Assembly: GCA_016795035.1 (NCBI GenBank)
Contig: JAEUIT010000068.1
Location: forward strand, 1-64,000
Reading direction: 5' to 3'
DNA: 64,000 nt
Source of the DNA: Phycisphaerae bacterium
GTDB taxonomy: Bacteria > Planctomycetota > Phycisphaerae > Phycisphaerales > SM1A02
Position numbers and translations under genes: made by a program. Below are positions 38,507-64,000 of the stretch, one piece after another. The notes under the pieces are model-generated. The model searched no databases, was not told the origin of the DNA, and saw nothing but the letters and a program-made list of their open reading frames with translations. Every line of letters starts with the position of its first letter. The stretch's first letter is position 1.

Positions 38507-41491
38507 TCACGGCGCCGGTGCGCCGGCCGCCCGCCACCACTCGTCCGCCTTCTCGTCGTACCCCCGCCCGGGCTCGGCCCGATCCCAGGCTTCGTATAGC
38601 TCCGCGAGGCTCTTCGCGCAGCCGAGCGTGTCCAGGTGGGTCGGGCCCCGCGCCGCCGCGAGCAGCCCGTGGGCCTCGCGAAGGTCGGCCTCCGCGAGCG
38701 CGAATCGATCGACGTCGAAGCCGAGATCGACCCGCGAGCGCCCGAGCGCGAGCAGCAACGTGGTGAGCGGCGTGACGTTGCCGCCGGCGACGCTCCGGCG
38801 CGTCGACTCCTCGATCGCGGCCAGCGTCTCGACCGCCTCGGCGTGCTTACTCTGCGCGCGAAGGAGGCCACCGAGCTTGATGACGTAGATCAGCGCGTCC
38901 GGATGCTCCGGGCCGAGCGTCCGTCGGCTCGTCTCGACGGCTTCGCGGTAGTACGGCTCGGCGTCGCCGAGCTTGCCGAGCGAGCGCAGGAGCGAGCCGA
39001 GATTGCTCACCGACATGAGCGTGTCGCGGTGTTCCGCGCCGAGCACGCGGCGGCGCCGCTCGAGGGCCTCGCGGTAGTACGGCTCCGCCTCGGCGAACTG
39101 CCCGAGCGTCTGCTTCAGGAAGCCCATGTTGTTGAGCGAGACGAGCGTCTCCGGATGGTCGTCGCCGAGCGTGCGACGCCGCGACTCGAGCGCCTCGAGG
39201 TAGTGGCGCTCGGCCTCATCGAACTTCTTCTCCGCCTGCAACAGAAAGCCCATGTTGCTGACGGCGGTCAGCGTGTCCTGGTGCTCGTCGCCGTACACGC
39301 GGCGGAATCGCTCGAGCGCCTCGCGCAGGAGCGGCTCGGCCGCCGCAAGGTCGCCTCGGGATTGCAGCAGGTATCCGAGGTTGTTGATCGAGATGATGGT
39401 GTCGCGGTGGTCGTCGCCCAAGGTCTCGCGTCGGCGCTTGAGCGCCTCGCGGTAGTAGCGCTCCGCCTCCACCGGCTTCCCGAGATCGACGAGCACGAAG
39501 CCCATGTTCGCAAGCGACGAGAGCGTGTCGCGGTGTCCGTAGCCGAGCACCTGCGCGCGGCGATCGAGCGCCTCGCGGTAATACGGCTCGGCGGCGGCGG
39601 ACATCCCTTTCGCCTGGAGGAGCGTGGCCATGTTGTTGATGGCCCGCAACGTGGAGGGATGGTCGTCGCCAAGGACGTGGCGGAAACCCTCGAGCGCCGC
39701 CCGCGTGAACGGCTCCGCCTCTTCGGGCTTGCCCTGCTTCTGGAGGAGGACGCCCAGGCTGTCCATCGACTCGAGCGTGAGCGGATGCTCCTCGCCGAGG
39801 AGGCGAAGGCGAATGGTGAGCGCCTCATGCTGCAACGGCGACGCGGCGTCGTAGAGGCCGATCGTGCGATAGAGATCGGCGAGCGCCTGTCGAAGCGACG
39901 CGTCGACCCGCGGCTGCTCCTTGAAGGCGGCGTCGATCGTCGCCACCGCGGGCTGCAGGATCGTGCGGTCGATCATCGCGGCGGCGGCATCGGTCGCGTT
40001 CACCCGCGAGAGGTCGGCGGCGAAGCGCACGCGCATCGCCTCCCGTTCGTCGGCCGGAATGCCCCCTTTCTCCGTTGCAGCCAGGAAGCGGCCGCGGACG
40101 TCGGCCATGAGCGCGGCGCCCGAGCTTGCAACGTCGATTTGCCCGAGCATCTCCGATTGAAACGCGCTCACCTTCGCGAGTTCGTCGGCCCGCTCCTTCT
40201 CGGCCCGCTGCGCCGCCTCCGTCGCCGAGAGCTGCACGCGCAGGTCCGCCTCCGCGCGCAGTGCCCGGGCGAGCGCCAGCCCTGTCGCGACCGTGCCGAC
40301 GACGAGAGCCGACGCCGCGAGCGCCGCGAACGCGACCGGCGCGCGGTGACGACGCACGAAGAGCGCGAGCTGTCGCCACGCCGTCGGCGGGCGCGCCTCG
40401 ATCGGCCGGCGCTCGAGCCAGTGCCGGACGTCGCGCCCGAGCGCCTCGGCGCTCGCATAGCGCGCGTCGCGGTCCTTCGCGAGCGCCGTCGCGACGATCG
40501 CCGCGAGGTCGCGGTCGAGGCCGTCGATCGGCGGCGCCGGCGCCTCGCAGATCGTCCGCACCGCCTGCGCCAGCGGCTCCCGCGAGACGTCGAACGGCGG
40601 CCGATCGGCCAGGAGCTCGTAGAGGATCGTGCCGAGGCCATAGACGTCGGCGCGGACGTCGAGGTCGAGATCGCCGCCCGAGCATTGCTCCGGGCTCATC
40701 GAGTTCAGCGTGCCGACGAATTCGCCGGCGAGCGTCGCCGAGCGCACGCGGTCGGTGAGGAGCGCGACGCCGAAGTCGATGACCTTCACCACGCCTGCAA
40801 CGTCGACCAGGACGTTCGCCGGCTTCAGATCGCGGTGGATGACGCCGCGGCCGTGCGCGTGCTGCACCGCCGCGACGGCGTCGAGGAAGCGCCCGAGCCG
40901 CGCCTCGCGCGGGAGCCGATCCTCGCGGGCCGCCTGCACGATCGTGCGGGCGCCGTCGACCCACTCGAGCGCGACGAAGGGAACGTCGAGCTCGCCGACG
41001 CGCGTCACGCCGCTCGCGTGGACCTGCGCGACGTTCGGGTGTTGCAGACGTCCGAGTGCCTCGGTCTCGATCGCGAAGCGCTCCTGCGCGCGGCGCGCGC
41101 CCGCGTCGTCGGCGCGGCGCACCGCGCGGCGCACGACCTTGAGCGCCACCACGCGATGCGGCGAATCCTGCTCGGCGCGGTAGACATCGCCCATGCCGCC
41201 GCTTGCCGCATGGGCAATGACCGTGAAGCCGCCAAGCCGCGTCCCTTCGCCGATCGTCGAACGCCCGCCGGACGGCGGCGCGAGCGTCGCGTCGCTCGGA
41301 GTCCACGCCGGCGACTCGAGGAACTCCCCCGCCATCGCGGCCGCCTCGAGGAGCCGAAGCGCGCAGGCGCGAAGCTCGGGATCGCCGTCCGTCCTCGATT
41401 CGACGAACGCTCGACGGGCTGCAACGTCGAGATCGAGCGCCTCGCGGAGGATCGCATGCCCACGTCGTGCCAGTTCGTCGGGCGCGGTCAT
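38507..41491 (-). CDS. Ser/Thr protein kinase with C-terminal tetratricopeptide repeats
   Basis: A 994-residue kinase. After about 80 residues comes the kinase domain: glycine loop [18 protein letters not shown] lysine, [14 protein letters not shown] catalytic loop, DFGVA magnesium loop and [10 protein letters not shown] activation segment. One membrane helix follows ([20 protein letters not shown], about residues 400-420), then a helical linker. At least eight 42-residue kinesin-light-chain-type TPRs follow, of pattern [18 protein letters not shown] then [12 protein letters not shown]. The ATG overlaps the stop of the ECF sigma factor gene (ATGA). Such sigma/kinase pairs are a hallmark of planctomycetes, where the kinase probably controls its cognate sigma factor; the extracytoplasmic TPR array is the likely sensor. 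Confidence 0.9.
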
Positions 41492-42045
41492 GCCGAAGGT
41501 CCGTCGCCGGTTCGAAGGGCGTCGAAGAGCCACGCCTTCGCGCAGGACCACTCGCGGTCGGCGCTTCGCGAGGGAAGCCCGAGCACGAGGGCGGCCTCGT
41601 CGAGCGTGAGCCCGCCGAAGAAGCGGAGCTCGACGAGCGTCGCCTGCAACTCGGAGATGTCGCGCAGGCGCCCGAGCGCCTCGTCGAGCTCGAGGACGTC
41701 GAGCGGTGCCGCCGGCGCCTCGACCGTCGCCAAGTCGACGCCGGCCCGGCCCCGCATGCCTCCGCGTTTCACCGCGCCGCGCGTGCGGGCGTGGTCCACC
41801 AGCACGTGGCGCATGATGCGCGCGGCGGTCGCGACGAACCGCTCGTGCGACATGGACGCGTCGCGCGCCTGATCGCCCAGCCGGCACCATGCCTCATGCA
41901 CGAGCGCCGTCGGCTGCAACGTGTGGCCGGCGCGCTCGCCACGGAGGAAGGCCGACGCGAGCCGCCGCAACTCCGCGTACGTCGCCGCGAGAAGCTCGTG
42001 GTCGTCGGGTGTTCCGTCTCGGTCGGTGGGCCGCGGATCGGTCAC
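41488..42045 (-). CDS. ECF sigma factor of the kinase-associated type
   Basis: A 185-residue sigma-70 family protein. The region 2-like block is TYAELRRLASAFLRGERAGH then TLQPTALVHEAWCRLGDQ, followed by HERFVATAARIMRHVLVDHA and the region 4 helix-turn-helix LRFFGGLTLDEAALVLGL. The pattern LQPTALVHEAWLRL with RIMRHVLVDHAR is typical of the TIGR02999-like ECF group found next to Ser/Thr kinases. It uses a GTG start (VTDPRPTDRDG); longer frames upstream run inside the sirtuin gene. It lies 10 bp after the sirtuin stop and overlaps the kinase start by 4 bp. No anti-sigma factor gene is present, so the kinase is the likely regulator. Confidence 0.9.
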   Translation of the reverse strand: MTDPRPTDRDGTPDDHELLAATYAELRRLASAFLRGERAGHTLQPTALVHEAWCRLGDQARDASMSHERFVATAARIMRHVLVDHARTRGAVKRGGMRGRAGVDLATVEAPAAPLDVLELDEALGRLRDISELQATLVELRFFGGLTLDEAALVLGLPSRSADREWSCAKAWLFDALRTGDGPSA

Positions 42046-42055
42046 GGCCCCATTG

Positions 42056-42853
42056 TCATCCGCCGACGGCCGCGGCGCGCCGGGCGATGTCGCACGCGGC
42101 GCGGAAATCTTCGGGAGACCCGCCCTCGGCGAGCGCGGCGACGAATGCGGGCAGCGTCCGCCCGGCCGGCCCTTCGACGCAATCGTCGAACCACGCCGAG
42201 ATTTCCGTGGCGCGGAGATTGAACTCGATGCATGCCGCAGCGCAGCGTTCGCGGGCCTCGCGCACGAATCCCGCCGCGGGCCAGACGGCCCCTTGGGTGC
42301 CGATCGAGAGGAAGAGCCCGCAGTCGGCGAGCCACTCGTCGATCGTCTCGGTGCCGAGGATCGCCTCGCCGAACCAGACGATGTGCGGGCGCAGCGTGCC
42401 GCACTCGCCGGTCTCGGGATCGATCGACGTCTCGTCGCACGCGCCCGACCATGGATGCACGCGACCCGTGCGAAGGCTGCGCACGCGCCGCAGCTCGCCG
42501 TGCATGTGAAGGAGTTCGCCCGCGCCTGCAACGCCGAGTCCGGCGCGCTCGTGCAGGTCGTCGACATTCTGCGTGATCACCCGAACCGGCGCGGGCCAGC
42601 GCCGCGCGAGGTCGACGAGCGCGCGGTGCGCCGCGTTCGGCTCGATCCGCGGGTCGTCGAGCTTCTGCCGCCTCTCCGAGTAGAAGCGATGGACGAGCGC
42701 GGGGTTTCGCCGAAATCCCTCGGGCGACGCGACGTCCTCGATGCGGTGCCCTTCCCACAGCCCGTCGGCTCCGCGAAACGTGGGGATGCCGCTCTCGGCG
42801 CTGATGCCGGCGCCGGTGAGGACGACGATGGGGCGACAGCGTCGAATGGTCAT
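42056..42853 (-). CDS. Sir2 family NAD-dependent protein deacylase
   Basis: A 265-residue sirtuin expected to remove acyl groups from protein lysines using NAD. Motifs are GAGISAESGIPTFRG (NAD loop), RVITQNVDDLHERAG and the catalytic His in HMHGELR. RPHIVWFGEAI aligns with the CobB-type substrate loop. The zinc-ribbon region holds only two cysteines (GACDETS and GECG) in place of the usual four, so the structural zinc may be absent or bound differently. The start at 42853 (MTIRRCRPIVVLTG) overlaps the upstream gene stop by 4 bp (ATGA), showing translational coupling. Association with a sigma/kinase module is suggestive of signalling but unproven. Confidence 0.88.
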   Translation of the reverse strand: MTIRRCRPIVVLTGAGISAESGIPTFRGADGLWEGHRIEDVASPEGFRRNPALVHRFYSERRQKLDDPRIEPNAAHRALVDLARRWPAPVRVITQNVDDLHERAGLGVAGAGELLHMHGELRRVRSLRTGRVHPWSGACDETSIDPETGECGTLRPHIVWFGEAILGTETIDEWLADCGLFLSIGTQGAVWPAAGFVREARERCAAACIEFNLRATEISAWFDDCVEGPAGRTLPAFVAALAEGGSPEDFRAACDIARRAAAVGG

Positions 42854-46780: not shown

Positions 46781-48703
46781 CTACTTCGCCGCTTCGCCTT
46801 GGCGGATCGTCGTCAGCTTGCCGACCGGGATCTTCGCGCCGTCGATGATCTCCTCGTTGCCGTCGGGCCAGCGGACGCGCACCTTGTCGACCCGCGCCGC
46901 CATGCCGAGGCCGAACGTGAGGGGGAGTTCGCACGCCGAGAGATAGCTCCGCGAGGGCATCACGTGCTTGCGCTGCATCGCGTCGCCGGCGAAGAGGTCG
47001 ACCTCCGCGCCGATCGCGGACGTGTTCTTTCCGTTGCCGACGAGCTTCAATCGCACCCAGCCATTGCGCGTCTCGAGCTCGTTGCGCAGGACGACCGGCT
47101 GCCCCTTTGGCTGCGTGCAGACGAGATCGAGATCGCCGTCCGAGTCGAGGTCGGCGTACGCGGCGCCGCGGCCGACGATCGGCGTCGCGACGTCTCCGAT
47201 CATGCCCGCCGGAAGCTCGACGAACGCCGGCCCGTGCGGCTCGATGCCGACCACGTTGCGGAAGAGGAGCCCGGGCTGAAGGTACTGCTGGCTGCGGTAG
47301 ACGCGGTTGATGTCGTTCTCGAGATGGCCGTTGATCTGGAGGAAGTCCTCCCAGCCGTCGAGGTCGGCGTCGAAGAAGAGCGTGCCGAAGGACAGCACTT
47401 TCCGCGTTGCAGGTCCGATGCCCTCGGGGATCGCGTCGTCGGCGAAGCGCGGCGCAGTGCCCTTCTTGGGCTCGGTCACGTAGAGCGAACTCATCTCGTT
47501 CGCGAAGTTGCCGATCGCGACGGCGATGCGCTCGTCGTTGCGGAACCACGACGCGTCGATGCCCATGGCCGCCGTGGCGGTGCCGTTCCGGTCGTACGCG
47601 AATCCGCTCGGCGCGGCGATCTGCTCGAACGTGCCGTCGCCCTTGTTGCGGAAGGCGAAGTTCATCACCTTGTCGTTCGCGACAAGGATGTCGAGGAAGC
47701 CGTCGCGGTCGACGTCGACGAACGTCACGCCGAGCGCCTTGCCGACCGGCTTTCCGGTCGCGGGGTTCTTCACCATGATGCCCGCGGGCTCGGTCACGTC
47801 CTTGAACGTGCCGTCTCCCTCGTTGCGGTAGAGCGTGCAGTCGACGCCCGCGAAGCCGTCGGGCGGGCCGTACGCGCGGCCGAGGCCGGTGAGTTGGTAG
47901 CCAACCTTGCGGTCGATGTCGGGGTTCCACTCGACGTAGTTGCACACGAAGAGATCAAGGTCGCCGTCGCGGTCGTAGTCGAGGAAGCCCGCGCTCGTGC
48001 CCCACTGGTTCTCCGTTGCAGGCAGGCCCGCCTTGTCGGTGACGTCCTCGAAGCGGAAGACCGGCGACTTCTCGGTGACGTTGCGGAAAAGGCGGTTCTT
48101 GCCGGTCGGCCCGTCGCCGACGGCGGTGATGAAGATGTCGGTGCGCCCGTCGCCGTCGTAGTCGCCGACCGCGACGCCCATGCCCTGCAACGGGATGTCG
48201 AGGCCGCTCTGGTTCGTGACCTCGACGAAGTTGCCGCCGCCGGTGTTGTGGAAGAGCTGCGACGTCGGAAGGTGCGCCGGCTGATCCTCGACCCACGGCC
48301 ACGGAATGCCGTTGATGAGAAGGACCTCGGGCTTGTCGTCGCCGTCGAAGTCGGCGAGCGCCACGCCGCCGCCCATCGTCTCAGGCAGCATCTTCTCGCC
48401 GAGCGCGCCGTTCTGGCGGTCGAAGAGGATGCCCGAGACCGGGCCACACGACGTGAAGGGAATCTTGACGAGCGCGCCCTTCGGGGGCTCCTTCGCCGCG
48501 CTCGGTCCGACGACCGGCGGAGGCGCCTTCTCCTCGCTCGCGCGCGGTCGCGTGACGAGCCACACGACGCCCGCGACGACGGCCGCGATGCCGACGATCG
48601 CGATCGAGAATCCCACCGCCTTCCCGACGAGCTGATCCGCGCGTCGCGCCTCCTCGGCGCTCGATTGCGTTTCGGGAATGACGTCTTCGTGTTCGTTCGT
48701 CAT
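46781..48703 (-). CDS. CRTAC1/ASPIC-UnbV family protein with membrane anchor
   Basis: A 640-residue protein with a single N-terminal membrane helix (VGFSIAIVGIAAVVAGVVWLV, about residues 27-48) and a long outside domain. Repeated FG-GAP/VCBS calcium loops (ADFDGDDKPEVLLIN, GDYDGDGRTDIFITA, DYDRDGDLDLFVCN, DVDRDGFLDILVAN, DLDSDGDLDLVCT) form a propeller. The C-terminal ~90 residues (VRLKLVGNGKNTSAIGAEV, RVRWPDGNEEIIDGA) match the ASPIC/UnbV domain. The gene begins 17 bp after the multihaem cytochrome gene and is surely in its operon. It converges on the preceding gene with a 28-bp gap. The exact role of CRTAC1 proteins in bacteria is not established. Confidence 0.85.
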   Translation of the reverse strand: MTNEHEDVIPETQSSAEEARRADQLVGKAVGFSIAIVGIAAVVAGVVWLVTRPRASEEKAPPPVVGPSAAKEPPKGALVKIPFTSCGPVSGILFDRQNGALGEKMLPETMGGGVALADFDGDDKPEVLLINGIPWPWVEDQPAHLPTSQLFHNTGGGNFVEVTNQSGLDIPLQGMGVAVGDYDGDGRTDIFITAVGDGPTGKNRLFRNVTEKSPVFRFEDVTDKAGLPATENQWGTSAGFLDYDRDGDLDLFVCNYVEWNPDIDRKVGYQLTGLGRAYGPPDGFAGVDCTLYRNEGDGTFKDVTEPAGIMVKNPATGKPVGKALGVTFVDVDRDGFLDILVANDKVMNFAFRNKGDGTFEQIAAPSGFAYDRNGTATAAMGIDASWFRNDERIAVAIGNFANEMSSLYVTEPKKGTAPRFADDAIPEGIGPATRKVLSFGTLFFDADLDGWEDFLQINGHLENDINRVYRSQQYLQPGLLFRNVVGIEPHGPAFVELPAGMIGDVATPIVGRGAAYADLDSDGDLDLVCTQPKGQPVVLRNELETRNGWVRLKLVGNGKNTSAIGAEVDLFAGDAMQRKHVMPSRSYLSACELPLTFGLGMAARVDKVRVRWPDGNEEIIDGAKIPVGKLTTIRQGEAAK

Positions 48704-48720
48704 GCGTGTGCCGGTGGTGG

Positions 48721-51618
48721 TCAGCGCGAGTTCGTCGCGGACGATACGGACTTCGGCGCCTCGAGGCCATACGCGCCCGCCCGTTGCAGGTCGAAGAGGA
48801 CGACCGCTTCGGCCGCCTTGTTCGCCGCCGGATACTTGATGCGGGCGAGGTTGATCGCACGGTCGCGGGCGTTGTCGTCGGCCTTGTAGCGGGCGTGCTT
48901 CTTGAGGTACGGCTCGGCGGCGGTCGGGTCGCCGAGCTCGGTCAAGACTTGGGCCATGAGGTAGTTCGCCGTCGCCTGCTCCGGATCTTCGACGAGCGCC
49001 GCTTCGAGGTGGCGCTTGGCCTCCTCGAGGAAGCCCTGGCGGCGCTCGCGCGCCGCGTCGCCGCGCTCGACGCGCGACTGCTCGAGGAGCGTCTCCGCGA
49101 GTTCGACGCGCACGCGGTCGTCGCGCGAGAAGTCGAAGCCGCGCTCCTTCGCGACCGCCCAGTCGCTGTCGATGACCTGACGGAAGAGGCCGATCGCCTC
49201 CTCGAGGTTGCCCTGCTGTTTCGCGACGAGTCCGCTGAACCACGCGACCGACCACGGATACGCCGGGGGCTCGTGCTTCGCCGCGGCACGGAGCGCCTCG
49301 GCGGCTTCCTCGAGGCGCCCTTCGCGGACGTAGACGCGGGCTCGGCCGAGGACGCCCTCGGCGCGTCCGAGCTTCTCGGCTTCGGCGAACGCCTCTTCGG
49401 CCTGACGGAGAAGACCCTTGCCGCCGCCGCGGTCCGCCGTGCGGAAGAGTCCGATGCCGTAGTCGTACCAGCGTTGCCACGGATCGATCGGCGAGGTCTG
49501 GGTCGCGATCGCCGAGACGTCGCCGCCGACGCCTGCAACGGGGAGCGTGATGCGGTCGGTCGCGAGCGTGAGGATCGGAAGATCGTTCATGCGCTCCTCG
49601 CCGAAGATGTAGCGCACGTAGGTCGTGTCGAACTTGCGGTACTTGAGCGCGACCTCGATCGTGATCGGCGCCGTGAGGTCGGTCGGCACGTCGAGCATGT
49701 ATTGCGTGATGTCGGCGGCGCCCGGCGGAATCTGGTTGTTGTAGAGCGGCGTGAAGATGTCCTGCGGGTTACGGCGGTCGATGCGGTTGCCCTCGCGGTC
49801 GAGCATGAAGACGTTCAGGAACTTCGACCACGGGTCGACTTCGTTGCCTTGGCTCGGCGCGGTTCCCATGCCGCCCGAGCGGCCGATGATCCGGTCGCCC
49901 GACTTCACGGTCACGTCGAGCCACACCTCGTTGCTGTCGGCGGTGCCCTGCGTGAACTCATGGCCCATCTTCACGGTGCGCGTGACCACGTCGATCAGGT
50001 ACTTCTCGCCCGGCTTGAGCGCGGGCAGCACCGGACGAAGCGGCGCGTACAGCGTGCCGTCGACCTCGCCGCCTTCGCGCACGCCGACGATGTCGACGCG
50101 CATCACGCCCTTATTCAGCTTCTCGATCGCCGCCATCATCGCGTCCTTCTCGGGAAGGTTGAGCTCGTGCGGGATCGCGGTGTTGGCCGAGAGGAAGTCG
50201 TGGCTCAGGATCGCGAGCTGGCGCTCGCCATCGACCTCGCGCACCTTCGCGCCGAAGTCCTCGCTCGCGATCTTCGCCATGTGGCAGCCGTTGCAGTCGG
50301 CGTCGGACTTCGGCGGGTAGTACCACGAGAGCGCGCCGTGGCCGGAGACGCCCGAGAGGCGGAACGAGTCGTAGTGGTTCTGGCCGCGGAGCCACTTGTA
50401 GCCGTTGAGCTTCTCGGGCAAGTGGACCTTGTGGCACGTCGAGCAGAACTCCGCGTTGCGGTGGACGTCGGGCTTGAGGAACGTGTGCTTGTGGAAGCCG
50501 GGCTTCGCCTTGATGAGCTGGCGGTTCACCCACTTCAGGAACGGCGACTCGCTGAACGTGAAGGGATACTGCGGGCTCTCCTCGATGGTGAAGTCCGCGT
50601 TGCCGCGCGGACTGCCCACGTGCGTGACCGAGTGGCACACGGTGCAGCTGATCGACGCCTTGCCGAGCGGGTCGTTCGCGATGTCGTACGCGGGGTCGTC
50701 CCACTTCGGAAGCTCGAACGAGCCGGTGAGGAACGGCACCGGATCGTGGCAGCCGGCGCACCAGCGGGCCCCGTGCACGTTGCCGTCGCGCTCGTGCATG
50801 ACGCGGCGCGTCTCGCGCACCGAGAACGCGTAGAACGGGTTGTTGAACGAGCTGAACGCATGCATCGAGTGCGTCCAGGAGTTGTAGGTGTCCTCGTGGC
50901 ACTCGAGGCAGTACTCGTTCATCATGAGCGTGCGCTCGGGGATGAAGTTGCCGGTCGCGGTGCGGACAAGCGACGGCTCGAAATACTGCTCGCCCGCCGC
51001 AGGGCCAGGCTGCGACGGGTCGCGCGGATCGATCGAGTGCAGCGCCGCCATGCCGATCGCGAACACCGCGGCGACCGCGCCCCAGATGGCGCCCGTCTTC
51101 CACTTGATGCGGCGCCCGGCGAGCCGGTGCATCACGAAGAGCCAGATCGCGACGACCGGCGCGATGACGTGGGCCCAGTAGATGAGATCGCGCTTCGTCG
51201 GATCCTTGATCGCGATCGTGACGCCGCCGAGATCGAGGCGCGTGAGGAGGAATCCGGTGACGAGGATGACGATCGCGATGAGGAAGAGCGCCCACCCGAC
51301 ACGCTTCGCCCATTGGTTCGGGCGGTTGTGCGCGTTCCGCGCATGGATGACCCCGAAGAGGATCACCGGCACCGTGATGACGATGCCGAGCGCGAGATGC
51401 GCGAGGAACATCCAGAGGCAGAAGTAGTTCTGAAGGCTCAGCCCGCTGCGCCACTCGAGGAACGTGATCGCCGCGAGGTACGTGCTATTCACGCAGAGAA
51501 GCGCGAAGAGCCCGAACACGATGCCGAGCACGATCTTGAGTTTCGGGCCGACGACCGGCACGAACTTCTTCTTGGCTGGCGGTGCGGACTGCGGAGGAGT
51601 CGTTGGCACTGGATCCAT
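48721..51618 (-). CDS. Membrane multihaem cytochrome c with C-terminal TPRs
   Basis: A 965-residue protein. Residues 25-195 contain five membrane helices with His74, His92, His150 and His164; the last two are spaced H-x13-H as in b-type cytochromes. Five CxxCH c-haem sites follow: CLECH (237-241), CAGCH (287-291), CTVCH (325-329), CSTCH (392-396) and CNGCH (442-446), with many His as possible distal ligands. A beta-rich region (about 470-690) and a TPR-rich region (about 700-950) complete it. It probably moves electrons across or outside the membrane. It is preceded by 251 bp without a clear signal and followed at once by the CRTAC1 gene. The fusion of haem-b-like, haem-c and TPR parts is unusual. 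Confidence 0.8.
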   Translation of the reverse strand: MDPVPTTPPQSAPPAKKKFVPVVGPKLKIVLGIVFGLFALLCVNSTYLAAITFLEWRSGLSLQNYFCLWMFLAHLALGIVITVPVILFGVIHARNAHNRPNQWAKRVGWALFLIAIVILVTGFLLTRLDLGGVTIAIKDPTKRDLIYWAHVIAPVVAIWLFVMHRLAGRRIKWKTGAIWGAVAAVFAIGMAALHSIDPRDPSQPGPAAGEQYFEPSLVRTATGNFIPERTLMMNEYCLECHEDTYNSWTHSMHAFSSFNNPFYAFSVRETRRVMHERDGNVHGARWCAGCHDPVPFLTGSFELPKWDDPAYDIANDPLGKASISCTVCHSVTHVGSPRGNADFTIEESPQYPFTFSESPFLKWVNRQLIKAKPGFHKHTFLKPDVHRNAEFCSTCHKVHLPEKLNGYKWLRGQNHYDSFRLSGVSGHGALSWYYPPKSDADCNGCHMAKIASEDFGAKVREVDGERQLAILSHDFLSANTAIPHELNLPEKDAMMAAIEKLNKGVMRVDIVGVREGGEVDGTLYAPLRPVLPALKPGEKYLIDVVTRTVKMGHEFTQGTADSNEVWLDVTVKSGDRIIGRSGGMGTAPSQGNEVDPWSKFLNVFMLDREGNRIDRRNPQDIFTPLYNNQIPPGAADITQYMLDVPTDLTAPITIEVALKYRKFDTTYVRYIFGEERMNDLPILTLATDRITLPVAGVGGDVSAIATQTSPIDPWQRWYDYGIGLFRTADRGGGKGLLRQAEEAFAEAEKLGRAEGVLGRARVYVREGRLEEAAEALRAAAKHEPPAYPWSVAWFSGLVAKQQGNLEEAIGLFRQVIDSDWAVAKERGFDFSRDDRVRVELAETLLEQSRVERGDAARERRQGFLEEAKRHLEAALVEDPEQATANYLMAQVLTELGDPTAAEPYLKKHARYKADDNARDRAINLARIKYPAANKAAEAVVLFDLQRAGAYGLEAPKSVSSATNSR

Positions 51619-51869
51619 GGGCGTTGTCTGCGAAAGTCGGTGTTAGGCGTCGATCGGGGGGCAAGTCGCACGATCGACGCCGTGCATATTCGCGGGAACA
51701 TACACGACCGGGGTGGATTCCCACCCGTACATCTCGACATTTGCCGCGAGAGGCCTTGAGCCTTCGTCGGCCGGCGCCGCAGGTGCCAACCGGCACTTGC
51801 GAGCCGCCCTCCACGAGTGACCGAGCGCCGGACGCGCGACCGGGCCCGGTCGGCGAACGGCGATGACGC

Positions 51870-54800
51870 TCAGTGCCCGCTCCGCCATCGCGTGTGCGAC
51901 GCGCGGTGAGCCGCGTCGCGAGCGGGGTTCGAGGGAGGCGAGCCCGAGCGCGTCGGCAGCGGGCCCACCGTCTCGCCGTCCCCAGTGAAGAGGTCCATGT
52001 CCTTGCACCAACCGTCGGTCTCAAGGACGTATCGCCGCGTCCATCCTTCGGGCAGCGGAGGGGGCGGCATGAAGCGAACGCGAATCTCTTCGCCAGGTCC
52101 GATGACCGCGACGCCGTCGTCGGTCGCCGCGAGCAGCGCATCGACCGGACCGAACGCCGAATAGAGCCCGTGCTGGTGACGCGTCGACCAGAACGGCGCA
52201 CGCACCGCGTAGTTGTAGTCGGGACGCTTCTGTGGTTGCGGCACGCGCTCGGGGAATCCGATCTCGGCCGCCGTGGCGTCGACGAGGCGAAGCGGATGCG
52301 CCACGAGCTCGGCGTCGCGCGCGTCCACCGCGACCGCGAACGAATCCCAGTAGATCTCCTGCGTCGACGTCATGCGAAGCGCCGTCGTTCCCGGAGGCAC
52401 GGCATCGAGCGGAAGGCTCATCTCCCGCGGCATGCCCGCGGGATAGCCCCACGGCCCGAGCACGCGCGACCAGGTGCCGTCGGCGCCGCGCGCCTCGAGA
52501 TCGGGCGCGACATACGCGCGCCCGGCCTGCCACGCCGCGAAGTTCGTCTGGCAGTACGGATACTCGACCCAGCCGTGCGCGACGAGCCGTTGCCCCGCGC
52601 CGCCGATCGGCTCGGCGAACTCGAGCGTGAGCGTGCGCGGCGTGCGCAGAAGCCCGATGAAGCGCGGATCGACGTCGCCCGGATCGGCTGCAACGTGGTC
52701 ATGCGCGGCGAGCGACGCGGTGACGTCGAGCCCGTCGCCGGCCTCGGCACGCCTGAGCGGAATCGTGCGCGCCACCGCGACCACGTTGCCGCTCGGCTGC
52801 GGATCGGCGATCGCCATCCGCTCGTCGACCGTGAGTTCGAGGCCCGGCGGAACGTCGTAGGCGACGAGCCGCACGGCGTCGAGGTAGAGCGCTTCCTCCA
52901 TCGGCTCGCCGAGCCGAAGCTCAAGCGCGCCGTCGCGCGGCTCGAGCTTCAACGTTGCAGGCAGGAGCACGCGTTCCCACGGCCGCGGCGGCGCGTACTC
53001 GGGCGCGAGGCGGCCGTCGGCCGACGCCGAGACGCCGACGAGGTAGCCGATGCCGCCGACGCCGAGGCAGTCGGTGACGAACTCGAAGCGCTCGCCGTTC
53101 CACGCGAAGATCACCGGACACGACGAGATCTGCCGTTGCGTCTCGACGATCGTCGTCGGCGCGCCGGCTGCAACGGCGAGTTCCGTCTGAAGGACGCCGT
53201 CCGACCACTCGACCGCGACGAAGTCGGCGCTCGGCCGCGCGCCCACGCCGATCGCGATCGGCTGCAGCGACTGCCCAGGCCCGCTCGTCGGCCGCACGCC
53301 GTCGACGGACGTCCAGACGTCGTCGCGGCGCACGCGGATCCGCGCGCCGATGCCGCCCGCGTTCGAGCGCATCGCCTGGCTCGGGTCGATGCGCCCGCGA
53401 AGGTCGAAGGTCACGAAGTTGCCGCGCGTCGCGCTCGGCGCGAGCAGCCCCAACCCCTCGTCGGACAAGACGAGGATCGACGGCCCTTGGCCATCGCGCA
53501 CCATCGGCGTCCACGCGCGGATCGCGGTGCCGACCGGAGGATTCGGCGTGTCGTCGAACGGGCGTCCGTCGTGGCCGATCGACGCGAAGCTCGTCGCCTG
53601 GCGCAGCACCAGCGAGATCTCGCCGTCGCCGCGCACGTCGAGCGCGGCCACGCCGCCCCCCTTCGCGCGCCCGATCGCTCCGAGTTCCCACGGCGTGTGC
53701 GCCTTCCACGTGGCGGCGCCGTCCACGCGCGCGGGCACGAACGGCACGACGTTGCCGTCGGGCAGCGACGCGAGCAATTCCGGACGACCGTCGACATCGC
53801 GATCGACGGCGACGACGGCATCCACCGCGGCGGTCGCGAACGCGCCGGCATTCGCCGGCGAGAAGCGCCAGAGCCGGTCGTTGAGGAGGATCTCGTGCGG
53901 AGGTTCGGCGTGGACGAGGACGAGGTCCGTGTCGCGGTCGGCGTCGAGGTCGGTTACGACGACTTGCGTCGCGGGGCGGCCGTCGCCGCGGGCGCCCGAC
54001 GATTCGCCGATCGACGTGAAGGTCCCGTCGGACCGGTTCGCCAAGAGATCGCACGGACCGTCAGCGTTGACGAGATAGAGGTCGAGGTCGCCGTCGTGGT
54101 CGAGGTCGGCGAGCGCGCCGTCGACGGTGTCGCGATCGCCGCCGCCGGTGCCGCTCGCGGCCGTCGCGTCGCTCCACGTTGCAGGTGAGGTCTGAAGAAG
54201 GAGCCTGTTCTCCCCCTTGCGGCAGATGTAGGCGTCGACGCGGCCGTCGTTGTCGACGTCGCCGAACAGGACAGCGCGGGCGTCGCTCACGTTCGCGAGC
54301 GGATGGTCGGGCACGTGCCGGAAGTTCGCGGGGACGTCATCGGCCGCGCCGTCGCCGAGGAAGACCGAGGTCGCGCCTTCCTTCACGGCGCCGATGGCCA
54401 CGATGTCGAGGAGACCGTCGCCGTTCACGTCGGCGACCGCGAGCGATGCCGGCCCCGTCGCGCACCATGTCGTCGTTGCAGCCCCGGGGCTCTCGATCGC
54501 GACCGGGAGCGCGTCGAAGAAGGGCGGCTCGGGCGCGGGCCCGGCGACCGGTGCGGCCCACGACGGCACGACCACTTCCGACAACGGCCCCATGCGCGAG
54601 TACTTGAACTCGGCGAGCCGTGCCCGCGGGTTCCCCTCGAGCGCCTCGAACGCCGCGAGCGCCTTCGCGGCCTCGTCGGCGCGGCCAAGGTTGTCGAGCG
54701 CCTGTTGCAGGCGCAACTGCGCCGAGCGCAGGTACGGGTCGAGCTCCGTGGCGCGGCGGTACGGCACGAGCGCCTCCTCGCGCTTGCCGGCGTACTCCCG

Positions 54801-55301
54801 GCAAAGACCGACGTAGTACGCGGCATATGCGTCGTCGGGCCGGGCGGCGGCGGCCGTCTCGAAGAGCGGCAACGCGGTCTCGTACTGGCCGAGGAAGAGC
54901 GCGGCGAGGCCCCCGGCGTACGCCGCGCGGATGTCGTCGGGCCGGGCCTTCAGGAGCGCGCGAAACTCCTCGAGCGCCCGCTCCTGCGCGCCGTCGGCGG
55001 TCTGGTTCATCTCGGCGATCGCGCGATTGCGCCGCACGTCGGGGTCGTCGGGAACGAGCGTGAGCAGTTCGCGGAAGGTCGCCTCGGCCTTCTCGAACTC
55101 GAACTGCCCCATCTCGCCGGCGCCGCGATTCAGGAGCCTGATCGAGGCGTCGTCGGCGGGCCGAGCGGATGTCGTCGTTGCAGGCGCCGTCGCTGGTGCC
55201 GGCGACGGCGCGGGCGGCTTGGGATCGCTGCAGCCGACGAACCCGGCGGCCGCAACGACGACGGCTGCAACGGGGAGATACGTGGCCTCAGCGCGGCGCA
55301 T
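51870..55301 (-). CDS. Lipoprotein with TPRs, FG-GAP propeller and ASPIC/UnbV-like domain
   Basis: A 1143-residue exported protein with a lipoprotein-type signal (VAAAGFVGC, Cys24) and an Ala/Pro-rich linker. Residues ~50-235 hold about five TPRs (EFEKAEATFRELLTLVPDDP, YETALPLFETAAAARPDDA). Residues ~280-660 have FG-GAP/VCBS loops (DVNGDGLLDIVAIG, DVDNDGRVDAYICR, DLDHDGDLDLYLVN). An ASPIC/UnbV-like segment follows (GGIGARIRVRRDDVWTSVDG, FVAVEWSDGVLQTE), then a ~400-residue beta-rich domain of unknown type with a Cys-containing VIFAWNGERFEFVTDCLG segment. The start overlaps the end of the nitrilase gene by 14 bp. Partner of the cytochrome and CRTAC1 genes downstream by position. Confidence 0.8.
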   Translation of the reverse strand: MRRAEATYLPVAAVVVAAAGFVGCSDPKPPAPSPAPATAPATTTSARPADDASIRLLNRGAGEMGQFEFEKAEATFRELLTLVPDDPDVRRNRAIAEMNQTADGAQERALEEFRALLKARPDDIRAAYAGGLAALFLGQYETALPLFETAAAARPDDAYAAYYVGLCREYAGKREEALVPYRRATELDPYLRSAQLRLQQALDNLGRADEAAKALAAFEALEGNPRARLAEFKYSRMGPLSEVVVPSWAAPVAGPAPEPPFFDALPVAIESPGAATTTWCATGPASLAVADVNGDGLLDIVAIGAVKEGATSVFLGDGAADDVPANFRHVPDHPLANVSDARAVLFGDVDNDGRVDAYICRKGENRLLLQTSPATWSDATAASGTGGGDRDTVDGALADLDHDGDLDLYLVNADGPCDLLANRSDGTFTSIGESSGARGDGRPATQVVVTDLDADRDTDLVLVHAEPPHEILLNDRLWRFSPANAGAFATAAVDAVVAVDRDVDGRPELLASLPDGNVVPFVPARVDGAATWKAHTPWELGAIGRAKGGGVAALDVRGDGEISLVLRQATSFASIGHDGRPFDDTPNPPVGTAIRAWTPMVRDGQGPSILVLSDEGLGLLAPSATRGNFVTFDLRGRIDPSQAMRSNAGGIGARIRVRRDDVWTSVDGVRPTSGPGQSLQPIAIGVGARPSADFVAVEWSDGVLQTELAVAAGAPTTIVETQRQISSCPVIFAWNGERFEFVTDCLGVGGIGYLVGVSASADGRLAPEYAPPRPWERVLLPATLKLEPRDGALELRLGEPMEEALYLDAVRLVAYDVPPGLELTVDERMAIADPQPSGNVVAVARTIPLRRAEAGDGLDVTASLAAHDHVAADPGDVDPRFIGLLRTPRTLTLEFAEPIGGAGQRLVAHGWVEYPYCQTNFAAWQAGRAYVAPDLEARGADGTWSRVLGPWGYPAGMPREMSLPLDAVPPGTTALRMTSTQEIYWDSFAVAVDARDAELVAHPLRLVDATAAEIGFPERVPQPQKRPDYNYAVRAPFWSTRHQHGLYSAFGPVDALLAATDDGVAVIGPGEEIRVRFMPPPPLPEGWTRRYVLETDGWCKDMDLFTGDGETVGPLPTRSGSPPSNPARDAAHRASHTRWRSGH

Positions 55302-56292
55302 CGAATGCCTCCCGTCCCTTCATGATTCGGTCGCGCAGCGATTCGATCGAGATCGCGCCGTCGGCGCGCGGGAAGATCGGACGCTTCAGGTACGGATACA
55401 TCTCGGTGCGCAGATGCGCCCGCATGTCGTGTCCGATGCGCCGCTCCCGCTCGGCCCTTAGCGCCGCCACGTCGATCGGCGCGACGACCACCTTCTCGCC
55501 CGGGCCCGCGTCGGCCTGCGCGAGGATTCGTCCGTCATAGTCGACGACCATGCTGCCGCCCGGCCAACTGAAGGGCGGGTAACCCTCGAGCGTGGCGCCC
55601 TGGTTGGCTGCAACGACGAACATCGTGTTCTCCGCGGCGCGGGCGCGATTGAAGAGCGTCCACCAGTCCATCGGCGGCGTCGCGCCCCACGGATCCATGT
55701 AGGCCGAGACGCGAATCGCGATCTCGCAGCCGTTGAAGGCGAGTTGCCGCAGCGTTTCGGGAAAGAGCCAGTCGTAGCAGATCGCCGTGCCGATGCGCCC
55801 GATCTCGGTGTCGGCGACCGGGAACGCGTCGTCCACGAGCCCGGGCACGTCATGCGGGCTCGCGTGCACTTCCCACGGAATCCACGGATTCACCTTGCGG
55901 TACGTCGACACGATGCCGCTCGAATCGCCGTCCGGCCCGATGAGGCACGTCGTGTTGAACACGCGACCCGGCGCGCGCGGATGGCGCTCGATGAAGGAAC
56001 CCGTCTGAATCCAGATGCCGTGCTTCTTCGCGAGGCGTGCGTAGCGATCGGTGTGTTCGTTCGGAATCTCGACGGCGAGGTGACGGTCAAGCTCCGCCTC
56101 GGTGAGATACACCGGGGCCGCGTGCGCGAACTCGGGAAACGCGAAGAGACGCACGTCGAAGAACGGCTCGTAGCCCGCGAGCGTCGCTTCCACCATGGCA
56201 CTCATGCGCGTCACGCGCTCGCCGATCTCGTCGCGCCGTTGCGGGCATGCGAACGATGTCTGGCACGCCGCCGCGTAATAGCGATCAGGCAT
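55288..56292 (-). CDS. Carbon-nitrogen hydrolase (nitrilase superfamily)
   Basis: A 334-residue cytoplasmic amidase or nitrilase-like enzyme. The catalytic triad is Glu54 in FPEFAH, Lys133 in YRKVNPW and Cys172 in ICYDWLFPET. The flanking VFNTTCLIGPDG and NTMFVVAANQGA are typical. The substrate (an amide, a nitrile or a carbamoyl compound) cannot be told. The length is normal for the superfamily. It is the first gene of a leftward cluster and overlaps the start of the TPR/FG-GAP lipoprotein by 14 bp. Why an amidase is coupled to a set of exported redox-type proteins is not obvious. Confidence 0.85.
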   Translation of the reverse strand: MPDRYYAAACQTSFACPQRRDEIGERVTRMSAMVEATLAGYEPFFDVRLFAFPEFAHAAPVYLTEAELDRHLAVEIPNEHTDRYARLAKKHGIWIQTGSFIERHPRAPGRVFNTTCLIGPDGDSSGIVSTYRKVNPWIPWEVHASPHDVPGLVDDAFPVADTEIGRIGTAICYDWLFPETLRQLAFNGCEIAIRVSAYMDPWGATPPMDWWTLFNRARAAENTMFVVAANQGATLEGYPPFSWPGGSMVVDYDGRILAQADAGPGEKVVVAPIDVAALRAERERRIGHDMRAHLRTEMYPYLKRPIFPRADGAISIESLRDRIMKGREAFDAPR

Positions 56293-60732: not shown

Positions 60733-61045
60733 AACGGGTGCATTCGCGACCGCGTCCGTTGACCACTTTTCGCTTGGTTATGGAGCTTCTCGTGGCAGAA
60801 TGGGGGGACCAGTGCGGATGCGCGGCGTCAGGCCACTCGCGACGTCCCCGCATCCCTCATCTCGCTTTGGACCATTGGGTGAATTGAGGCAGGCTCTCCT
60901 GCCCTCGTCTGTCGCGACGCGACCGCTGCGTGCGTTCGTTGCCGGTCGCGATGGTGAGCATGTCGGGCGTCGCCATCGGCCCCCACGTTGACTCGCCCCT
61001 GAGGTCCGCCTCCCGTCCGTCCCGTCGTCTTGCTTGGAGCCCTTC
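60733..61045. other. 313-bp intergenic region
   Basis: No gene seen. It contains an inverted repeat CGCGACCG (60918-60925) and CGGTCGCG (60943-60950). It ends in TGGAGCCCTTC, which supplies the ribosome site of the next gene. TTGACC at 60759 could be a -35 element but no fitting -10 was seen. Confidence 0.4.
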
Positions 61046-64000
61046 GTGAAAGACATGCGTTCGTCGTTGGTGGGACTCTCGATCGCGATCGCGTTCGGGA
61101 TGGTTGCGTCGTCGTCCATGGCGCAATGGCAGACTGCGTTCGTGAATTCGACATCGACGCGCCTCGTCATGAGTCCGTCGCTCCAGAACGACAACCTCGA
61201 GAAGGACTTCGGCTGGGGCGACTTCGACAACGACGGCGACGTCGACCTCATCTGCGTGCGCAAGTTCCCCGGCTCGGTGCAGGGCGGCTTCCCCGACATT
61301 CTTCTGATGAATGAAGGCGGCGTGCTCGTCGACCGCACGCAGGAGTACGGCACGGCGTCGCTCACGCCCGGCGACCTCGCGCTCAAGGCTAGCGTCAACG
61401 ATCGCGACGTGAAGGCGGTCGACATCAACCTCGACGGTTGGCTCGATCTCGTCACCGTCACGACGATGTCCGACCAAGTGAACGCGACGCTCGGTCAGCC
61501 GCGCGTCTACATGAACCTTGGCAACAACGGCAGCGGCCAGTGGCAGGGCTTCCGCTTCGAGGATGCGCGCATCCCGGAACTCTTCGCGAAGAACGGATCC
61601 GCCGCGAACCCGCGCGCGTGCGACTCGATCGTCGTCGACCTCACCGGCGACGGCTACCCCGACATCTTCTTCGTCGACTACGACACGCCGGAAACGAGCG
61701 GCACCGTCTGCATCGATTTGAACGGCGACGGCGACACCGGCGACGCGAACGAGTGCCAACAGTCCCCCGCCGAGACGACGACGAAGGACTACGACAACAA
61801 GTTCCTCGTGAACCAGGGAGCCGCGAACCCCGGCTTCTTCACCGACTCGACGACGACGCGCTTCACCTCGACGCAGCTCGCGTCCGCGTTCGGCAACGCG
61901 GTGAATGCCGGCGACTACAACGGCGACGGGTACCTCGACATCGCCCGCATCAATACGCTCACGTCGGGCCAGAACGTGAGCATCCTCTACGCGAAGGCTC
62001 CGCCGGCGCTTGGACTCTCGTTCAACGGCCCCGACAACATCTACGCGAACGCGCCGTACAACATCGCCACGGGCGACCTCAACAACGACGGCAAGCTCGA
62101 CCTCGTCGTCGTCGACGACAGCCAGGACCGCATCCTCATCAATAACGGCAACGGTGCCGACACGTTCGCCAACTTCACTTCGTACACGATCTCCGACAGC
62201 CTCGCGGAGTTCGGCAACTCGGTGCAGCTTGCCGATCTCGACAACGACGGCAAGCTCGACTGCCTCATCGCCGACGTCGACGCCGACCTTCCCTCCTTCT
62301 GCCCGACGACCGGTCGCCGCGCGCACATCTATCGCAACACTGGTGTCGTCGGCGGAACGCTCCTCGACGAGATCGGCGAGATCATTCCGAACGCCAGCCT
62401 CGGCGCCACGTTCGACTTCGCGCCGATCGACATCAACGGTGACGGGTGGAAGGACGTCGTCACGGGCCGCTGCTCGGGCATCGACGTCTGGATGAACAAT
62501 CCGCCGATCGGTCTTGCCTTCAGCTTCCCGCAAGGCGCGCCGCTGACCGTGAGCCCGACGTCGACGACCGCCTTCAACGTGACGCCGACGATCATCGGCG
62601 GCGGTCCGATCGTGAACGGCTCGCTCAAGCTGCACTACAGCATCAACGGCGGCGCGTGGGTCGAGACTGCGCTCACGGGTGGCCCCGTCACCTACAGCGC
62701 GACTCTGCCCGCCGTCGCGTGCGGCGGCCTCGTCGACTACTACCTGAGCGGCAAAATCGCCGCGAGTAACGCCACCTACACCGAGCCTCCGACCGCACCC
62801 GCCGACTTCTACACGGCATCTCCCGGGAGCGGCGAAGTGGTCGTCTATACGACCGAGTTCGAGAACGGCGTGGACGGCTGGACGACCTCGATCGTCGGCG
62901 CGAACGTCGGCGGCGCATGGGAACTCGGCGATCCCGTCGGCACCAACGTGACCGGCATTCCCGCCAACCCCGAGAACGACAATACGGCCGCTCCTGGCGT
63001 CAGCTGCTGGGTCACCGACAACGGCGCCGTCGGCGCCTCTGCGGCGACCAACGACCTCGACAACGGCCCGGTCATCCTGACGTCACCGACCTTCACGGTC
63101 GTGCCGGGATCGGTGATCGAGCTCAATTACTCGGCATGGGCGTACTGCAACGACGCCGCGCTGCCGGCGGAGGCGGACTTCCTCCTGGTCCAGTACTCCT
63201 ACGACGGCATCACCTGGACGACCGCTCGGTCGATCGGAACGACCGGCAGTACGTGGCAGACCTTCACCGACAGCTTCGGGCCGGTCACCTCGTCGACGCT
63301 GAGTATCCGCTTCAGCGCCGCCGATCCCGCCAACAACAGCACGACCGACTTCGGCGTCGACAGTCTCACGGTCTCGCGCACCACATGCTCGACCGGCCCC
63401 ACCTGCAACGGTGACTTGAATAACGACGGCTCGATCACCTGCGCCGATTTCCCGCTCCTCCTCGCGGCCGTCAATAACGGCGCGAACTACTGCGCCGATC
63501 TCAACAACGACGGCCTCGTCACGAACGCCGACATCACCACGTTCTACACGCTCCTCGGAAGCGGCGACTCGGACGGCGACCAGTGGCCGGATCTCTGCGA
63601 CAACTGTCCCGCCAGCGCGAACGCATCGCAGCTCGATACCGACGGCGACGGCGTCGGCAACTCCTGCGACGGCTGCCCCAACGATCCACTCAAGATCGCG
63701 CCCGGCGCCTGCGGCTGCGGCGTAGCCGACACGGACAGCGACGGCGACGGCGTCGCGAACTGCAACGACGGGTGCCCCAACGATCCGTTGAAGTCCTCTC
63801 CCGGAACCTGCGGCTGCGGGGTTGCGGACACCGACAGTGACGGCGACGGCGCCCCCAACTGCGTCGACGGCTGCCCCAACGATCCGGGCAAGACGGCGCC
63901 TGGTGCGTGCGGCTGCGGCTTCCCCGACACCGACAGCGACGGCGACGGTGTCGCGAACTGCGCAGACGGCTGTCCGAACGATCCGCTCAAGACGTCGCCC
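61046..64000 (+). CDS. Secreted FG-GAP protein with dockerin-like and Cys-rich calcium repeats (truncated by window end)
   Basis: At least 985 codons, open at the right edge. Translated directly from the GTG at 61046, which has GGAG about 6 bp upstream; an ATG three codons later is an alternative. Signal peptide: SIAIAFGMVASSSMAQ. FG-GAP loops follow (GDFDNDGDVDLICV, DINLDGWLDLVTV, DLTGDGYPDIFFV, GDYNGDGYLDIARIN, GDLNNDGKLDLVVVD, DLDNDGKLDCLIAD), then a beta-sandwich region (about 500-780) resembling carbohydrate- or surface-binding modules. Next are two dockerin-like loops (GDLNNDGSITCADFPLLLAA, ADLNNDGLVTNADITTFY). From about residue 850 a 33-residue Cys-rich unit repeats, CPNDPLKxxPGxCGCG then DTDSDGDGVANC, at least three times. 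Likely a surface or matrix protein. Confidence 0.75.
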   Translation, partial: MKDMRSSLVGLSIAIAFGMVASSSMAQWQTAFVNSTSTRLVMSPSLQNDNLEKDFGWGDFDNDGDVDLICVRKFPGSVQGGFPDILLMNEGGVLVDRTQEYGTASLTPGDLALKASVNDRDVKAVDINLDGWLDLVTVTTMSDQVNATLGQPRVYMNLGNNGSGQWQGFRFEDARIPELFAKNGSAANPRACDSIVVDLTGDGYPDIFFVDYDTPETSGTVCIDLNGDGDTGDANECQQSPAETTTKDYDNKFLVNQGAANPGFFTDSTTTRFTSTQLASAFGNAVNAGDYNGDGYLDIARINTLTSGQNVSILYAKAPPALGLSFNGPDNIYANAPYNIATGDLNNDGKLDLVVVDDSQDRILINNGNGADTFANFTSYTISDSLAEFGNSVQLADLDNDGKLDCLIADVDADLPSFCPTTGRRAHIYRNTGVVGGTLLDEIGEIIPNASLGATFDFAPIDINGDGWKDVVTGRCSGIDVWMNNPPIGLAFSFPQGAPLTVSPTSTTAFNVTPTIIGGGPIVNGSLKLHYSINGGAWVETALTGGPVTYSATLPAVACGGLVDYYLSGKIAASNATYTEPPTAPADFYTASPGSGEVVVYTTEFENGVDGWTTSIVGANVGGAWELGDPVGTNVTGIPANPENDNTAAPGVSCWVTDNGAVGASAATNDLDNGPVILTSPTFTVVPGSVIELNYSAWAYCNDAALPAEADFLLVQYSYDGITWTTARSIGTTGSTWQTFTDSFGPVTSSTLSIRFSAADPANNSTTDFGVDSLTVSRTTCSTGPTCNGDLNNDGSITCADFPLLLAAVNNGANYCADLNNDGLVTNADITTFYTLLGSGDSDGDQWPDLCDNCPASANASQLDTDGDGVGNSCDGCPNDPLKIAPGACGCGVADTDSDGDGVANCNDGCPNDPLKSSPGTCGCGVADTDSDGDGAPNCVDGCPNDPGKTAPGACGCGFPDTDSDGDGVANCADGCPNDPLKTSP

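Follow-up and report, generated by a model that had tools for sequence, protein, structure and literature searches.

The locus examined here places a nitrilase gene, a gene for a TPR/FG-GAP lipoprotein, a multihaem cytochrome gene and a CRTAC1 gene one after the other, which raises the question of whether their products work together in the cell envelope and, if so, which of the four belong to a common core. An earlier note on the window (i.e., the whole stretch of 64,000 nucleotides that was analysed) had proposed that these genes specify an undescribed envelope redox or scavenging system.

Organization of the locus

The open reading frames and their translations, free of internal stops, confirmed the leftward run of four genes, together with the spacing reported for it: the nitrilase gene shares 14 bp (55288-55301) with the TPR/FG-GAP gene, 251 bp precede the cytochrome gene, and 17 bp (48704-48720) separate it from the CRTAC1 gene. 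The domain content assigned at first reading was recovered with Pfam (CN_hydrolase; FG-GAP_3 and TPR; Cytochrome_C554; FG-GAP_3 and UnbV_ASPIC), and exactly five CXXCH motifs occur in the cytochrome, which had been called pentahaem. Furthermore, the description of three of the proteins as exported agrees with a lipobox-type signal in the TPR/FG-GAP protein, five membrane helices in the cytochrome and one N-terminal membrane anchor in CRTAC1. Two features of the cytochrome had escaped that description, namely a membrane domain with four invariant His residues and a C-terminal TPR domain. The coordinates are collected in Table 1.

TABLE 1 Features of the four-gene locus, with positions in the window
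Feature	Positions	Strand	Evidence or remarks
Nitrilase-superfamily C-N hydrolase, 334 aa, formamidase/aliphatic-amidase-like	55288..56292	-	Pfam, NCBIfam, alignment
Putative lipoprotein, 1143 aa: TPR, FG-GAP propeller, degenerate ASPIC and conserved C-terminal domain	51870..55301	-	Pfam, alignment
251-bp gap between the TPR/FG-GAP and cytochrome genes	51619-51869	none	Also the split point in most rearranged relatives
Membrane b/c-type multihaem cytochrome with TPR tail, 965 aa	48721..51618	-	ORF, Pfam, alignment, model
Five predicted membrane helices, residues 25-194	51037..51546	-	Invariant His74 and His92 (helix 2), His150 and His164 (helix 4)
Pentahaem c554-type domain, residues 237-446	50281..50910	-	Five CXXCH; haem-binding His241, 291, 329, 396, 446
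Beta domain, residues 506-692	49543..50103	-	Invariant His553 in GHxFxxGTxDSN
TPR domain of the cytochrome, residues 713-936	48811..49482	-	Pfam, model
CRTAC1 partner, 640 aa: N-terminal membrane anchor, FG-GAP propeller, ASPIC/UnbV domain	46781..48703	-	Pfam, homologues, tree

Near the cassette, the window also encodes another FG-GAP-like protein downstream of uvrA (61034-64000, plus strand, possibly running past the window end), and similar proteins occur upstream of the block in some relatives. On the other side, a TPR-rich protein kinase adjoins an ECF sigma factor gene (38507-42567, minus strand).

The cytochrome and its predicted haem sites

Besides TPR matches, Pfam assigned the cytochrome to Cytochrome_C554 (PF13435) with 26.5 bits against a cut-off of 20.8; since PF13435 gave no match at the family threshold when the entire genome was scanned in six frames, we regard the protein as a borderline member of the c554 family. 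In an alignment of 32 sequences, in which the others are 27 to 56% identical to that of the window, 13 His residues are invariant: the four of the membrane domain, the five of the CXXCH motifs, His253 and His376 inside the pentahaem domain, and His473 and His553 downstream of it. The AlphaFold2 model (pLDDT 88, pTM 0.84) presents five long helices over residues 25 to 194, followed by the haem region, the beta domain and the TPR domain.

Stretches rich in Lys and Arg are found at the N terminus and in the loops that follow helices 2 and 4, which, by the positive-inside rule, suggests that the N terminus is inside; His74 and His150 would therefore lie towards the periplasmic side of the membrane, and His92 and His164 towards its cytoplasmic side. 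Two-haem membrane cytochromes b of the b561/FdnI type carry two His residues on each of two membrane helices, and in their usual layout the His pairs lie near the periplasmic and cytoplasmic faces. The cytochrome has two such residues on each of two helices, and by this His pattern its membrane part would be of the two-haem b type, with haem b as the putative ligand. The Pfam b561 family (PF01292) gave a weak match in 2 of 13 members of the cytochrome family (best 1.9e-4), and a search for a solved relative of the membrane domain returned none, nor any convincing sequence match.

Adding the two-haem pattern to the five c haems leads to a prediction of about seven haems, spanning the membrane and the periplasm; a cytochrome c assembly protein is encoded in the genome. 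Since only four further invariant His residues are available for the five c haems, one c haem would be left without an invariant His partner, a hint that it may provide an open site.

Association of the cytochrome with a CRTAC1 protein

Homologues of the cytochrome (E <= 1e-10) were found in 61 of 199 genomes of the phylum, that of the window included, and in most of the phylum loci fetched the gene is directly followed by CRTAC1, a divergent branch of about 30% identity included. Named genomes were scanned as well and yielded more than 580 further loci, the best 80 of which were used; these 80 are labelled as Planctomycetota, Acidobacteriota, Verrucomicrobiota, Gemmatimonadota, Latescibacterota and a few others, the labels being those of the records, many of them metagenome bins that are possibly mis-binned.

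Conservation of the neighbours across relatives had been set beforehand as the test on which the proposal could fail, and the neighbours proved to be kept together. Among 107 loci, 84 had room for the comparison, a number that depends on the distance limits chosen, and in 76 of these a CRTAC1 gene of the same orientation lies within 3.5 kb downstream, in nearly every case immediately after the cytochrome gene; in eight it is not next to the cytochrome. The two genes lie apart in G024 and G087, with a CRTAC1 at 48% identity elsewhere in the genome. Pairwise distances of cytochromes and CRTAC1 proteins are correlated (r = 0.89; Mantel test, 0 of 2000; 20 loci), as shared inheritance alone can also bring about. 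Among named strains, Rhodopirellula maiorica SM1 (L144) has the pair. As a separate observation, remote homologues of the cytochrome (27 to 29% identity) in G407 (C70) and at locus L224 also precede a CRTAC1 gene, so that such pairs may extend beyond the family described here.

The CRTAC1 gene of the window begins at an ATG, a longer GTG-started frame being unsupported by homologues. Its product, with FG-GAP repeats (FG-GAP_3, 7.9e-32) and an ASPIC domain over the cut-off (UnbV_ASPIC, 4.6e-17), belongs to the CRTAC1/UnbV-ASPIC family, which accounts for 11 UnbV_ASPIC matches in the genome overall. In a tree of 44 CRTAC1 proteins, all 28 linked to the cytochrome form one clade (support 100/98), outside which fall nine other ASPIC proteins of the same genome and the paralogues found upstream of the block in relatives. 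Read by eye, main-branch linked proteins have one N-terminal membrane anchor, in most of them after a DDxxIGxA motif, and several of the divergent branch are lipoprotein-like instead of anchored. The upstream paralogues, outside the linked clade and on the opposite strand, were seen at L193, L194, L199, L206, L207, L210 and L211, in some family members accompanied by a gene for a TPR-type lipoprotein-like protein.

Proteins of the CRTAC1/ASPIC type are numerous in such genomes, and the literature searched yielded no function for those of bacteria. One well-defined branch is now tied to a specific redox partner, and the occurrence of both in several phyla, the named strain included, makes a function testable.

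The nitrilase module and the four-gene block

The nitrilase has a CN_hydrolase match of 3.7e-40 (PF00795) and the Glu-Lys-Cys triad that define its superfamily; Glu54, Lys133, Glu141 and Cys172 are invariant in 15 orthologues. With 104 of the 406 bits required for formamidase and 80 of the 427 required for aliphatic amidase, it scores far below the NCBIfam equivalog cut-offs of AmiF and AmiE and represents a branch separate from both. No signal peptide was seen in it, and it is probably cytoplasmic. The TPR/FG-GAP protein matches FG-GAP_3 (1.2e-22) and TPR and, below the cut-off, UnbV_ASPIC (21.2 against 23.4 bits). Its C-terminal domain ends with GWCKDMDLFT.DGETV.PLP, and orthologues keep the GWCKDMDL motif as well as Cys728.

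The full block, in the same order and strand, was found in 18 of the 70 loci with upstream room, the window included, a denominator likewise set by the distance limits; its best-conserved member is the nitrilase, 63 to 75% identical among full-block loci. Of 20 nitrilase loci in the window's own family, 13 have the full run (in one of them a contig end falls within CRTAC1), three more are truncated by contig ends and the other four are rearranged. The rearrangements consist of one extra gene between TPR/FG-GAP and cytochrome (one case), a nitrilase-TPR/FG-GAP pair apart from the cytochrome (two cases) and a lone nitrilase (one case); in two of the rearranged genomes (G393 and G402), the cytochrome and CRTAC1 genes remain neighbours on a different contig. 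Because the breaks fall mostly at the site of the 251-bp gap, the block can be regarded as two modules. Order and strand are thus conserved in the cluster of the earlier note, but the cluster is not indivisible, two two-gene modules being joined in some lineages.

A close cytochrome is present in 25 of 29 family relatives and the nitrilase in 23, all of which have the cytochrome; the four without a close cytochrome (G360, G368, G399 and G407, the last with a remote homologue only) are also without the nitrilase. Sampled genomes of other families of the same order lack close forms of both, which indicates that the cassette was either lost there or gained in the window's family. In loci from other families, the TPR/FG-GAP gene lies beside or near the nitrilase in 9 of 20, in several orientations: co-directional at L218, L220, L221, L224 and L225, on the opposite strand at L212, L219 and L226, and in reversed order at L231.

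Of the 199 genomes sampled, 24 had the nitrilase and 27 a close cytochrome, both occurring together in 14 against 3.3 expected (p 2e-8, phylogeny ignored). Counting any cytochrome homologue, the joint occurrences are 21 against 7.3 expected, again with phylogeny ignored, and three nitrilase genomes have no homologue at all. These three genomes, and the nitrilase-TPR/FG-GAP pairs without a linked cytochrome, suggest that the two modules can work apart. That sample showed no full block, and the idea drawn from it that nitrilase and TPR/FG-GAP are not conserved with the cytochrome was overturned by the wider scan and the nitrilase search.

Proposed function

For the cytochrome and CRTAC1, the proposal of an undescribed redox system in the envelope finds good support in their conserved adjacency, the dedicated CRTAC1 clade, their joint absence from members of the family and the lack of a published description of the cassette in the literature searched, most subscription journals being outside its reach. 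We consider it probable that the two proteins form a quinone-linked membrane redox complex with CRTAC1 as a dedicated subunit, and that nitrilase and TPR/FG-GAP protein are partners in the same pathway.

In this two-subunit core, the cytochrome would sit in the inner membrane, with its N terminus inside. Two b-type haems, held by His74/His150 on the periplasmic side and His92/His164 on the cytoplasmic side, would move electrons through the membrane, towards the quinone pool or away from it, and the periplasmic part would act as a five-haem wire of the c554/NrfA type, in which the c haem without an invariant second His could bind a small substrate or a redox partner. The membrane-anchored CRTAC1 propeller would most likely dock on the cytochrome and either hold it, shape its active face or bind a partner. 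The amidase and lipoprotein module, joined to the core in the window's family, would probably serve the same pathway: the lipoprotein would have its place at the envelope, and the amidase would process a small amide or a related C-N compound that is produced or imported there. Complex formation, topology, haem b binding, the open haem site and quinone coupling are all predictions; as to direction, we lean slightly towards quinol oxidation, with the c domain as a reductase or an electron outlet.

It is also possible to hypothesize that the cytochrome is an electron wire only, without a catalytic haem, which relays the electrons of quinol to other carriers, periplasmic or outer, while CRTAC1 and the TPR/FG-GAP protein play structural or adhesive roles. 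TPR and FG-GAP are typical protein-interaction folds, and the weak NCBIfam matches of the haem domain include the electron-transfer families NrfB/NrfH, DmsE and OmcA/MtrC; however, none of the four genes encodes a porin or an outer-membrane conduit, and the finding of four rather than five extra invariant His residues suggests one haem without a bis-His pair, so that we hold this explanation to be unlikely, if worth keeping in mind. A bolder extension of the redox complex, unlikely in our judgement, is a quinone-coupled multihaem oxidoreductase of a new kind that uses a small nitrogen compound, with CRTAC1 as an essential subunit, one catalytic c haem and an amidase dedicated to the product or substrate; if true, part of the bacterial ASPIC/CRTAC1 family would thereby gain its first function.

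The nitrilase is tied to the redox part by gene order and co-occurrence only, and the block could represent nothing but inherited gene order, nitrilase and TPR/FG-GAP protein being functionally untied to the cytochrome. Such an origin would agree with the many genomes in which the nitrilase lies elsewhere or alone and with the frequent occurrence of the cytochrome-CRTAC1 pair by itself. Yet the block recurs in the family and at scattered loci outside it, nitrilase genomes have the cytochrome far above expectation even when the two are unlinked, the two are jointly absent within the family, and the nitrilase stays beside TPR/FG-GAP in several different orientations; we thus give inherited order little credence. 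No neighbour recurrent enough to reveal the amidase substrate, and no additional neighbour shared by the blocks, was found, except for the separate upstream CRTAC1 paralogues of some family members. The scavenging role put forward for the locus found no support: three proteins are indeed located at the envelope, but an uptake system for nutrients or metals is very improbable, with none of the four genes encoding a transporter, a TonB receptor or a binding protein and with haem and amidase residues as the conserved elements.

An abundant short repeat in the genome

The sequence CTGCAACGNNGA, with GGCTGCAACGNNGAG as its wider consensus, occurs in 2448 copies genome-wide (1249 and 1199 on the two strands) and at 47 sites in the window, for example at 2042, 11108, 24469 and 49533 on the plus strand and at 2551, 30918, 47401 and 54470 on the minus strand. 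The reversed-pattern control gave 42 copies, a genome of the same genus 42, and three other family members 11 to 17; the core 8-mer is about 20 times over the order-2 expectation. The repeat has sharp edges, and its one-base variants are few except for CGGCAACG and CCGCAACG. The DNA uptake sequences of Neisseria and Haemophilus are dense and non-palindromic, and CTGCAACGNNGA resembles them in both respects. The genome encodes ComEC, which is common in bacteria. The literature searched contained no paper combining "DNA uptake sequence" and Planctomycetota.

Comparison with known systems

The sequence of the c domain comes nearest to that of the pentahaem cytochrome c552 5ze8 (profile match, E 3e-8), followed by weaker matches (0.003 to 0.05) to c554 (1bvb), NrfA (1oah) and MccSep/ExtKL (9wt8). 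All of them share with the cytochrome the broad c554/NrfA-type signature C..CH...W..S.H; they match only part of the five-haem domain, and no match of theirs to the membrane domain or the TPR tail was seen. We rejected two specific identities. An NrfA nitrite reductase would have the Lys-ligated CXXCK active-site haem, which is missing here, all five motifs being CXXCH and the NrfA match weak, and the score for the ExtKL multihaem (seleno)protein family (NF040886) reached 19 to 21 of the 250 bits required. The two-haem cytochromes b of the b561/FdnI type resemble the membrane part in the placement of two His residues on each of two helices, a likeness of pattern and not a structural match; different from them, the membrane part is here fused to a pentahaem c domain, and no convincing sequence match connects the two. 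The closest solved relatives of the nitrilase are the formamidase AmiF and the aliphatic amidase AmiE, whose Glu-Lys-Glu-Cys residues it keeps.

Among the literature searched on CRTAC1, ASPIC/UnbV, FG-GAP and nitrilase with cytochrome, the one relevant report, from 2025, describes in non-anammox bacteria a CRTAC1-family gene flanked by genes like those of the HZS alpha and beta-gamma subunits, with c554 domains on the beta-gamma protein (PMC12758564). These clusters resemble the cassette in having a CRTAC1 FG-GAP gene next to those of multihaem, c554-domain proteins, and for that reason the cassette could be taken for a relative of them. We find this hardly credible, since no HZS-type domain was matched in the four proteins with Pfam or NCBIfam, and the gene order, the domain plan and the membrane part of the cytochrome differ. 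The hydrazine synthase-like clusters are a separate precedent for the association of CRTAC1 with multihaem proteins.
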